Shown piece after piece: positions 6,356 to 17,409 of a stretch of 64,000 bases of DNA. A model generated the notes under the pieces. That model did not search any database and was not told the DNA's origin. It was given only the letters and a program-made list of their open reading frames with translations. Source of the DNA: Apus apus (lineage: Eukaryota; Chordata; Aves; Apodiformes; Apodidae); contig NC_067296.1 in the NCBI RefSeq assembly GCF_020740795.1, forward strand, positions 6,177,001-6,241,000. Reading direction: 5' to 3'. How positions within the stretch are numbered: position 1 is the first letter of the stretch; each line of letters starts with the position of its first letter. Made by a program: the position numbers and the translations under genes.

Positions 6356-7037
6356 TCAGGTATACATCATTTCTGCCATGTGAGACATTTTCTTGGGAAT
6401 ATATAAGTAGTATTCCATGTATCCAGACAGATCTTCAATAGTCACGTCATCTACAAAGGCTCGAGCTTGCTCAGAACAAGATCTAGGAGAACCTGCTGGC
6501 ACTGCCCCACAGGGGGATCTGTGAAGAGACTGGGCATGGGCTCCCAGGACTGCCTTCTCACATTCCGACAGGACGCTCCGCAAGCCGGAGAACGAGTACA
6601 CTTCCATGGTTCTCCACTGTTTGCACTGGCATTTCCTGTCCGTACAAGGGCACTGCTTCCCATTGCTAAGCATGGATAAGGACTGGAAATCAGAGGTTTG
6701 GCTACAATGCAAGCTGGTTTCAAAGGATGAGGAGAGAGCAGGGAAATTCTCTCTTGACTTCTCCAAAGGCTCTTCGGCGGTGAAAGCTTCCGAAGGTTCA
6801 GTCCTGTCCTCACTGGCCTCCAGGTGAGAATCGTGCCCGTCCTTCGTACCATCTTCTGCTGCAACAAAAACGTCTGAACTGATACTGCCCTGGGCTGGGT
6901 CTGCCTGGGGGCTGTGTTTCAGCTGGCTGGTGGCTTTCACGTTGCAGTATGTAAACTTGGGAGGATGCAGGACAGGAGACTTGGAGCGTCTGCGCCGCGG
7001 GACTCTTGCTGACCCTCGGGAAGGCTTTCTCACACAC
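6356..7037 (-). CDS. OSER1L last coding exon
   Basis: There are 682 nt from acceptor CCCTGCAG to the TGA at 6358-6356, the same length to the base as the last OSER1 exon. It carries the RRRRSKSP basic motif, a DFQSLS serine patch, the cysteine cluster, a MEVYSFSGL motif and the invariant C-terminus. The sequence between residues about 95 and 170 is poorly conserved with OSER1. Confidence 0.92.
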
Positions 7038-9561
7038 CTGCAGGGTTGCAACAGGTGAGCAAGTAGGTAACTCCAGAACCTACACCATAGCTCAGCAGCT
7101 GTAAAAGGTAGCTAAAAATGCTTTAGAAGATTTTATTTGGTTGTTGTTTTTTTTTCTGCACAGAAAAACCGGGTGACTGGTCACTGACAATCTCTGACAG
7201 GAACAGCCAAGGAGGCTGAAGAACTTGGGGCTCCCCCAAAGGACAAACAGCCCTATTTTACAGGTACTTTCCCCCCAAATGGTCTGTGTTAATTAAACAA
7301 TACTTTGTCATTCCAAATTGGTCTGTAGTGCAGAGCCTGGATGTTGGCTGGAGCTGTTGGCAGAATCACCTGGAATATCCAGGTACCTCAGTACAGAAAT
7401 AAAATAACCCAGGACAGGGATAAGAGGGGGTTGCAAAGGTGTAAGACTTGAACAAAAGGAGGAAATAGGTGGAAAATAAAGTTTTAGGTACCCCCTCTAA
7501 GATAAGAGGCCATATTGCTTTTAAAGTCTTTGACAAAATGCCCTTAAAACCCACCACATCAAACAGATGACAGTAAAGTTTTGTAATAGAAAAGAGAGAA
7601 AAGAGAAGTTGAAGCAACTAATTCCAGCTTTCACTAGAAACAGAAAGTGAGTGCTGAGTGCCTTGGCACAGACAGGCGGGCATGGGGCAGTGACCAGTGT
7701 GTTTTACCCATGCCATGTGTCCTTGGAGCTGCCAGGCTGTGGCTTGGCCCCCTCTCCAGCTGCTCTCACTGATGTCCTCAGCAGGGTCCCATCACCCCCG
7801 GGCAGAGCTCCCGTGCATCTGGGGAAACAGGGAGACACCAGGTCAGAGCTGCATTGTCTGAGGAATCAGGGAGACACCTCCTCACAGCAGTGCCTGGACA
7901 TGCTGCTTCAGAGCTCCAGGCTCAGCCTCTGCTTTAGAAACATCTAAGTTTGCAGCCTTGAGTTCCTCTGTAGTCAGTGGTTAGAGACAGAATATTACAG
8001 AGATTTATCAACCTGCTCTCAGTGTATTGACCTCAGTCAAGTGTCTAAAGAGGGGTGAGATGAGATGAAGGGAGGCCAAAATGCCCAGAGGCTGAGGTCA
8101 TGCCCTCTTTGTACTAGAACACATGAAAGGAATGTAAGCTCAGGTTCCAGATGCTCCTGTCAGACAACAGTAGTTAAAGATAGGCTCCTTACTCATCTGA
8201 ATTGCAGTCAGGAACCCACAGCAGCAGGCTGAGCAGTCAGGGGACAAGTGGACAAGGTACAATGGACAAGGACAGATTCCTAATTTACTCTCATTAAATT
8301 TCCCAGATAAACATGGAATGCAAAAAAACCCAAACATCTGGCCCTGGAGGTTCAGACAGCAAAAATAAATGCCTGAGCAGGCAGATCTGTACTTATGGTG
8401 GCTGTATGTGTGATTTCAAACACAGAATAATAAAAAATGAGGCTGAAATTCTAGCAGAAGAGCCCAAGCACTCTGCTCAAAGTTGATCTTAAGGGATTAG
8501 TCACAAGACTTGAGCTGTTCAAAACACAGGCCTGCAAAACAAGATCCTTTTATGCCTAAGAAGATATCATCAGGAATCAACCAGAACTGTACACAGTCTT
8601 GTCCCTGGTAACACATCAGAATTAGCAAGCTTAATAAGCACAGTTCCCTGTTACAGACCAGCTGTTTTTTTTTCCACATGTAACAGAAGACCTCCTGAAG
8701 CAGAGGAAACAAGTAACAAAGCAAAATACATTTCAATGTGCAGAGGAAGTCATGAGTTCACAGTATGGATGGCTGTGGAGATGAAGTCACAAGGTAACAC
8801 TGGTTATCAGTACAAAGCTGTCTCTTGTGTCTCTGAATTCCCAAAAGATTTCAAGTGAACTTTCCCACAAAGTCTTAGGCTGCCTGATTTTATTAACTCC
8901 TCATTTCAGGGAAGATGCTTGTATTGCATATTCTCAGTACACCCCGTGTGTTCTGGAGCACATTTTTAGTGCAGGAATCCCTGCAGACTTTTACTCTACG
9001 CTGATCAGAAACGATCAGTGCTCATGTTCAGCCTGATGATTTCCAGGGAGACTGGGCTCTCCAGCACACCACCCAGGGATGGTGCTGGCCTGCAGATGCT
9101 TTCCAAGCCAATCTGCAGGGACCACAGGGAAGGCTGATCAGGTGGTTGATGGCACCAGTCTTTACATGAATGGACAAACACGTTCTGCTCCACAGCAGGC
9201 GACTTCAGTTAGGAGCAGTCCCATGCCCTGGGTGAGTCACCTCACGTTCTCATGTGTGATTTCAGTTGGATATTGTGTCAAGATCAGTCAGCAATAAACC
9301 CCTGCTTTGCCTATTAGACAGTTATAACTACTACACTTCACGTCAAGCGATGCAGTTGTCACCTCCCTGACAGTAATGACCCTTTCACCAAATTAAATTT
9401 GTTTTGAGGTTCAAAATAATAGAGAAATACAAATCTCTAGTAAGAAACTGACCAACGACACGGTCCTTTCTGTTGCTCCCTTACCCTGCTGCATCCACCC
9501 TCAGCTTTTTGAAAGCTGTTTGCAGACTCTCTTCCTCTTCATCTTTAGCCTCCACGTCCAT
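6356..9561 (-). CDS. OSER1-like paralogue, complete, three coding exons, 289 residues
   Basis: Exons are 9561-9485, 7818-7708 and 7037-6356 on the minus strand. They give 77+111+682 nt, one open frame of 289 codons plus stop. Product: oxidative stress-responsive serine-rich protein 1 family. N-terminus [22 protein letters not shown] matches OSER1 ([22 protein letters not shown] here). Exon 3 ends in the family motif SSKDTWHG. Exon 4 has the basic stretch [15 protein letters not shown], a cysteine cluster (CPCTDRKCQC) and the conserved C-terminus from [10 protein letters not shown] to MMYT. Both introns are phase 2, as in OSER1. The gene lies head to head with OSER1 and their starts flank one CpG promoter. 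It is not a processed copy, because introns and splice sites are present. OSER1 is a FOXO-responsive protein tied to oxidative-stress response and lifespan; no function is known for this copy. The middle third is strongly diverged. No official symbol is offered. Confidence 0.88.
7708..7818 (-). CDS. OSER1L middle coding exon
   Basis: There are 111 nt, between acceptor CTGTTTCCCCAG and donor GTAAAA, with phase 2 at both ends. The translation keeps spaced OSER1 landmarks: a G-D-G-T start, V-R-x-A, E-x-x-K-P, and the terminal SSKDTWHG. It is one codon shorter than the OSER1 exon (114 nt). It has few internal matches beyond those landmarks, so it is easily missed by a similarity search. Confidence 0.85.
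9485..9561 (-). CDS. OSER1L coding exon with start codon
   Basis: There are 77 coding nt from ATG to GCA GCA GG, followed by the donor GTAAGG. This is exactly as long as the matching OSER1 exon. The start has G at +4 but C at -3. The 5' edge of the exon is uncertain: acceptor-like AGs would start it at 9586 or 9605. An overlapping glycine-rich open frame in another phase is the shadow of the nearby minisatellite. Confidence 0.87.
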
Positions 9562-17000: not shown

Positions 17001-17409
17001 TCCACAGTCAGTTACACAGAACTCTCCAGCTGCTGTTTCCCTAGTGTCCAAGGCAAGCCTACAGACCTCAGAGCTTGCTGACTTCCAGTCCATGTCCAAG
17101 CTGAACACCAACAAGCCATGTACATGTGCAGATAAAGCCTGTCAGTGTAAACGATGGCAAGATATGGAAGTGTACAAATTCTCTGGCTTGCAGAACACCC
17201 TCCCAGTGGCACCTGATAGAAGAACAGTTTCTGAGGATCACACCCAGTCTTTGCCATCAAGAACTCCTGCAAGTTCCCCACGTTCTTGCTCTGAGCAAGC
17301 CAGGGCCTTTGTGGATGATGTGACTATTGAAGATCTTTCGGGATACATGGAATATTACTTGTATATTCCGAAGAAAATGTCTCACATGGCAGAAATGATG
17401 TACACTTGA
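14017..17409 (+). CDS. OSER1: Oxidative stress-responsive serine-rich protein 1, complete, 290 residues
   Basis: Coding exons are 14017-14093, 15899-16012 and 16728-17409 (77+114+682 nt, 290 codons plus stop; human OSER1 has 292 residues). The protein starts [22 protein letters not shown]. Exon 3 supplies SLSVGEG and ends SSKETWHG. The last exon has the basic motif [11 protein letters not shown] (residues 75-85), HPPKFIHC, a cysteine cluster at 195-204 ([10 protein letters not shown]), MEVYKFSGL and the near-invariant C-terminus (247-290). Both coding introns are phase 2. The family has no catalytic domain. It is nuclear or cytoplasmic, induced by oxidative stress, and linked to FOXO and longevity. 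It lies upstream of JPH2 on the same strand, as in mammals, so this copy rather than the minus-strand one is the orthologue. Confidence 0.96.
14289..14402 (+). other. OSER1: Candidate 114-nt in-frame cassette exon in OSER1 intron 2
   Basis: An acceptor with a pyrimidine tract (TTTACTCCCAGCAG) and a strong donor (GTGAGT at 14403) bracket 114 nt. Joined to the exon before, all 38 codons are open (starting [10 protein letters not shown]), and both ends are phase 2, so inclusion keeps the OSER1 frame. No family member I know has this segment. It could be chance, since about one open run in six this long is expected by luck before the splice sites are weighed. Confidence 0.3.
15899..16012 (+). CDS. 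OSER1: OSER1 middle coding exon
   Basis: There are 114 nt between acceptor CTCTTTCACAG and donor GTAAGA, phase 2 on both sides. It encodes the S-rich [12 protein letters not shown] stretch, TKPKN and the terminal SSKETWHG motif. Confidence 0.95.
16728..17409 (+). CDS. OSER1: OSER1 last coding exon
   Basis: There are 682 nt from acceptor GCCCTGATAG to the TGA at 17407-17409. It encodes residues 64-290, including the basic RRRRSKSP motif, the cysteine cluster and the conserved C-terminus. Confidence 0.96.

Follow-up and report, generated by a model that had tools for sequence, protein, structure and literature searches.

A second OSER1-type gene head-to-head with OSER1 in Apus apus: evidence for an old inverted duplicate kept by purifying selection

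Does the genome of Apus apus carry a second OSER1-type gene, and if so, is it a maintained gene or the remains of one? The question is raised by a 64,000-nt stretch of contig NC_067296.1 (assembly GCF_020740795.1, positions 6,177,001 to 6,241,000 of the forward strand; hereafter the window, in which positions are counted from its first nucleotide), where a preliminary description had placed on the minus strand a complete second OSER1-type gene (here called the copy) facing OSER1 on the plus strand. OSER1 (C20orf111, Perit1; Pfam family PF05604, DUF776) is reported to be a target of FOXO that acts on lifespan and on the response to oxidative stress (Song et al. 2024 as cited in PMC13232014), and its expression has been followed in broiler gut (PMC5390468).

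Exon lengths, phases, frames and splice dinucleotides of both genes were re-read, and the complete second gene was found as described. On the minus strand it consists of three coding exons, at 9561-9485 (77 nt, ATG at 9561, donor GTAAGG), 7818-7708 (111 nt, acceptor TTCCCCAG, donor GTAAAA) and 7037-6356 (682 nt with the TGA stop, acceptor CCCTGCAG); the splice junctions proposed earlier, 9485 to 7818 and 7708 to 7037, are exact. The coding sequence (CDS) of 870 nt with stop encodes 289 amino acids and contains zero premature stops, frameshifts or lost splice dinucleotides. OSER1 occupies 14017-17409 on the plus strand, with coding exons of 77 nt (14017-14093), 114 nt (15899-16012) and 682 nt with stop (16728-17409), and its CDS of 873 nt with stop encodes 290 amino acids. 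The two coding introns of each gene all follow codon position 2, the four of them carry GT-AG dinucleotides, and their lengths are similar (1805 and 715 nt in OSER1 versus 1666 and 670 nt in the copy). The plus-strand gene is taken as OSER1 itself because its product is 67% identical to the presumed sequence of human OSER1 (292 amino acids, unverified) and because it lies beside JPH2.

All three OSER1-family features that could be tested are present in the copy: the DUF776 match, the exon structure with its phases, and a C-terminal block of 44 residues. Against the DUF776 profile the copy scored 172.8 bits (E 1.2e-50, profile positions 1-178 of 180; gathering cut-off 25), and OSER1 scored 231.7 bits (E 9.6e-69) over nearly the whole profile. 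When the copy region was compared with the OSER1 region by blastn, three of the eight hits joined each coding exon to its counterpart, in matching order (E 1.7e-60, 6.5e-12 and, for exon 2, 6.8e-6); the rest were a G+C-rich segment close to the candidate promoter (E 3.6e-4, not above shuffles) and four hits at E of at least 2.6. Because of the family matches and the ordered exon pairs, the likeness of the two genes is not due to chance. A search of solved structures for relatives of the copy found none (one hit, E 1.5).

The two proteins are 54% identical; the same residue is encoded at 157 of 280 aligned codons, in which nucleotide identity is 61.5%. The copy thus resembles OSER1 in family profile, number of coding exons and intron positions and phase, and also in its acidic N-terminus, RRRRSKSP block, Cys-rich block CQCK..MEVY.FSGL and C-terminal block, and differs from it in inverted orientation, diverged exon 2 and diverged linkers with insertions and deletions (indels). 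From the N-terminus onward, residues kept per aligned codons are 21/26 at the N-terminus, 16/37 in exon 2, 22/36 in the RRRRSKSP region, 22/68 in the linker, 22/41 in the Cys-rich region, 10/28 in the second linker and 44/44 in the C-terminal block, which lies outside the Pfam match. The preliminary description had singled out the middle exon as diverged; so it is, but the two exon 3 linkers have diverged further.

A search of the whole assembly for DUF776 (1,100,375,756 bases in 110 contigs; all nine candidates scored, matches to E 10 kept) retained six matches, which are the six exons of the copy and OSER1, five of them above the family cut-off. In this search exon 1 of the copy scored 39.5 bits and exon 3 scored 76.3 bits. 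No DUF776 locus besides these two was thus found in the 1.10 Gb of the assembly, with the proviso that the search scores the best candidates only, so that a very weak third relic could escape it; the C-terminal 44 residues likewise occur at two places only in the genome. One TAA was counted in four of the six rows, those of exons 1 and 2. It is no stop within the exon, since the match runs past the exon into the donor, where GG|GTAA is read in frame. As a control, the same search gave a signal in one of 14 well-known genomes, none over the cut-off. Of 461 pattern-matching viral contig stretches and 64 genome contig stretches, none encodes a relative.

Is the copy maintained for its protein? 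A pairwise codon model fitted by maximum likelihood gave a ratio omega of 0.23, with a nonsynonymous distance (dN) of 0.39 and a synonymous distance (dS) of 1.72, and rejected an omega of 1 (twice the log-likelihood difference, 65.1). By NG86 dS was 2.06 and by LWL85 1.47. Over the 280 aligned codons agreement is 46% at third positions and 69-70% at first and second positions, and fourfold sites agree at 30 of 66. In the C-terminal block 15 of 44 codons have changed by 17 nucleotide differences, all of them silent, for which the crude neutral probability is 8e-13 (77 of 396 single changes are silent there). In exon 1, 18 of 25 codons differ but only 5 residues do. Neutral drift was then simulated from the OSER1 frame, with indels and splice sites left out: of 2000 frames, 160, 25 and 5 stayed open at 0.1, 0.2 and 0.3 substitutions per site, and 0 at each of 0.5, 0.75 and 1.0. 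Moreover, no intron similarity above shuffles was detected, the observed scores being reached by 197 and 106 of 200 shuffles. The codon model, the silent C-terminal changes, the simulation and the unalignable introns together lead us to read the copy as an old gene kept by purifying selection on its protein, with silent sites near saturation. Gene conversion in the C-terminus was considered and found no support: when Met and Trp are set aside, kept residues have identical codons at 24 of 39 positions there and at 54 of 109 in the rest of the protein (Fisher P 0.26).

We consider it highly probable that the locus holds the products of an old inverted duplication of the whole gene as DNA, both under purifying selection and most likely forming a partly specialised and co-transcribed OSER1 pair. 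The whole OSER1 gene would have been copied and inverted beside the original, leaving two genes that run in opposite directions from a shared CpG-rich stretch, and both would have been retained by purifying selection until their introns were no longer alike. The second protein would have kept the OSER1 blocks while its linkers were altered with indels. Kept blocks beside changed linkers suggest that the partner contacts have stayed as they were and that regulation has changed; the C-terminal contact surface would be common to both proteins, the linkers differently regulated, and the copy would act as the second, partly specialised member, transcribed together with OSER1.

A different possibility is that the duplicate is young and limited to birds or to some birds, and only its adjacency to OSER1 speaks for it. 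We consider this improbable. The estimated dS of 1.7 is large, and fixing dS at 1.19 costs 2.6 log-likelihood units, although the upper bound is loose (2.8 units at dS 3.6); the introns, moreover, cannot be aligned. A late origin on the bird line would lead one to expect changes that OSER1 and the copy share against human. Identities with the presumed human protein are 66.8% for OSER1-human, 55.6% for copy-human and 54.3% for OSER1-copy, so that the copy is nearly equally distant from human and from its neighbour; of 281 gap-free columns, the copy alone deviates in 58, OSER1 alone in 25 and the human sequence alone in 21. In 2000 bootstraps OSER1-copy identity was below OSER1-human identity in all 2000 and exceeded copy-human identity in 533. 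A clock test (21 of 46 changes on the human side), which assumes equal rates and a bird-mammal split at 320 million years (My), although the copy does not evolve at OSER1's rate, gave a one-sided P of at most 0.001 for a duplication at 200 My or less, 0.025 at 250 My, 0.10 at 280 My and 0.19 at 300 My, so that 280 My and older ages are not rejected. These results hint at an origin of the copy close to the amniote ancestor, and thus to the bird-mammal split, or before it. Because of the unverified human sequence, the equal-rate assumption and the copy's different rate, this age is a lead and not a proof.

Slightly less probable again is that an old gene has recently died or is unexpressed and is still open by chance. 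Such a reading would fit the copy's lower Pfam score (172.8 against 231.7 bits), the excess of columns changed in the copy alone over those changed in OSER1 alone (58 against 25, by the unverified human sequence) and the repeat-rich 5' region. Against it, the 870-nt CDS and the splice dinucleotides are intact, and in the simulation even 0.2 substitutions per site of neutral drift left only 25 of 2000 frames open. The marks of a pseudogene, a disabled frame or splice sites and relaxed selection, were not found in the copy.

That a retroposed copy landed beside its parent has a negligible chance and is refuted by the two coding introns, which match those of OSER1 in position and phase and have canonical splice dinucleotides; these, together with the adjacent head-to-head position, bear out the earlier proposal of an inverted DNA duplication and not retroposition. 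Head-to-head repeats can in general arise in assembly, but a false inverted duplication of OSER1 is just as remote and likewise refuted, since at 61.5% nucleotide identity in aligned codons and with introns that share no similarity one sequence cannot have been read twice, and the contig around the window is 15.76 Mb long.

For the proposed old and maintained pair, where might transcription start? Both genes probably share a single divergent promoter, flanked on either side by a short non-coding first exon. The candidate lies at 10458-10653, bounded by the putative first donor of each strand, 10458 on the minus and 10653 on the plus; the stretch 10453-10660 has a G+C content of 82% and an observed/expected CpG ratio of 1.01. 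It contains at 10516-10527 an NRF1-type palindrome that is the sole one in the window on both strands and appeared in 0 of 100 shuffles of the whole window (in which local G+C is not preserved), and at 10496-10505 an ETS-type site. In its roughly 200 bp of CpG-rich sequence between candidate first donors, the arrangement would resemble divergent head-to-head paralogous pairs on one promoter; it differs from such pairs in that OSER1 is involved, whose human counterpart has a divergent long non-coding RNA (lncRNA) instead. A mirror-image relation of the promoter halves was also considered: the score of the wider stretch was reached by 277 of 500 shuffles, and that of the core alone, weakly above shuffles, by 7 of 500. 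The mirror-image core is not claimed because of its G+C runs and because this was one of five such tests.

On the OSER1 side, a good acceptor predicted at 13979 (14 of 17 pyrimidines) makes 13979-14016 (plus) the likely 5' untranslated region (UTR) part of coding exon 1. An upstream open reading frame of 10 codons at 13985-14017 (plus) has a stop that overlaps the main ATG (TAATG), which suggests reinitiation control. On the side of the copy the putative 5' UTR part of coding exon 1 is 9562-9604 (minus), behind an acceptor that is no more than fair (CTGGCAG, 11 of 17 pyrimidines), and this leader, 9604-9562, is without ATG. The sequencing-hostile repeat that had been noticed beside the first exon is indeed there: a C-rich degenerate minisatellite of ~600 bases at 9851-10450, with units of 19, 37 and 56 among others, lies a short way upstream of coding exon 1 of the copy. 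By this model it would fall in the first intron of the copy, between candidate promoter and coding exon 1.

Several observations weigh against an expressed and selected pair. Exon 2 of the copy, with its 16 of 37 residues kept, stays under the Pfam cut-off when taken alone (20.7 bits). The estimate of selection comes from a single pair of genes in one genome, and some of the constraint seen there is that on OSER1 itself. Transcription of the copy is a prediction from sequence, and its 5' non-coding exon is modelled on one donor and a mediocre acceptor. The ETS-type site occurred by chance in 23 of 100 shuffles, and FOXO, ARE-type and YY1 consensus sites were not found in 10440-10700.

At the 3' ends, consensus matches give candidate poly(A) signals for both genes. 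The first AATAAA past the stop of the copy, at a distance of 128 nt, is at 6223-6228 (minus), with further ones downstream beginning at 5468, 5437 and 5061; that of OSER1 is at 17508-17513 (plus), 99 nt past the stop. A stretch of ~45 bases that lies comparably far past the two stops (17579-17622, plus; 6209-6165, minus) is similar at a score reached by 1 of 200 shuffles. It may be a shared 3' UTR element or a weak remnant, although the case for either is weak.

The neighbours place the pair in a recognizable block. To the left are a GDAP1-family exon on the minus strand (L007:9812-9998; GST_N_2 20.7 bits, cut-off 25; best solved relative GDAP1, E 8e-19) and, on the plus strand, a FITM-family gene (PF10261, 64.9 bits). 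To the right, likewise on the plus strand, lies JPH2 (junctophilin-2, 7rxe, E 7.5e-80, versus junctophilin-1, 2e-70). We take the order on human chromosome 20 to be FITM2, GDAP1L1, OSER1, JPH2, in which the copy would sit between GDAP1L1 and OSER1. Scans of five of the six frames over window positions 1-5800, two of those over 1-4500 only, gave no Pfam match, and the window gave 0 Rfam matches at gathering scores. What we take to be a CR1-type repeat lies within the first intron of OSER1.

What stands at this place in mammals? The human transcript OSER1-DT (OSER1-AS1) presumably starts divergently from OSER1, at the syntenic place of the copy between the GDAP1-family gene and OSER1. Conceivably the duplication is older than the split of birds and mammals, the gene for the second OSER1 protein was lost in mammals, and OSER1-DT is the transcriptional fossil of that gene, as XIST is of LNX3; we regard this as doubtful, because divergent transcripts are common at CpG-rich promoters. 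OSER1-DT, 'OSER1 divergent transcript', is described as an lncRNA on chromosome 20 in PMC9706709. According to Hezroni et al. (2017, PMC5577775), certain mammalian lncRNAs are the fossils of genes that in chicken and other vertebrates still code for protein, and genes lost to lncRNA tend to have paralogues; neither OSER1 nor C20orf111 is named in its main text. The copy is like those genes (PMC5577775) in being a coding gene where human has, by assumed position, a divergent lncRNA, and in having a remaining paralogue that could compensate, and unlike them in being tied to human OSER1-DT by that position and not by sequence.

Among the matches listed in Creative Commons (CC)-licensed full texts there was no paper on a second OSER1, which does not show the gene to be undescribed, and OSER1 with paralog and birds gave no match in those texts; bird annotations may already list the copy under an automatic name, for instance 'OSER1-like'. 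If a second, selectively maintained OSER1 is real, half of the system in this lineage would be missed by work on a single gene, and mammals may have lost an OSER1 partner. The copy would also offer a concrete and testable origin for a studied human lncRNA.

Further along the window, open frames at 43136-44269 (plus) resemble by eye CR1-type fragments of a long interspersed element (LINE); the two frames scanned gave no Pfam match. At 57968-58369 (minus) there is a G protein-coupled receptor (GPCR) gene of TRH-receptor type, with its exon 1 ATG at L008:1985, past the window, and TRHR as best solved relative (7wkd, E 2e-46). The human TRHR gene is, we assume, located elsewhere and not in this block; the gene here may therefore be of the TRHR3 type, which to our knowledge is absent from mammals, and perhaps another gene of the block lost by them. 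Beyond the TRH-receptor gene, at L009 about 5720-6025 (minus), a DC-STAMP-like transmembrane protein is encoded (PF07782, 59.2 bits).

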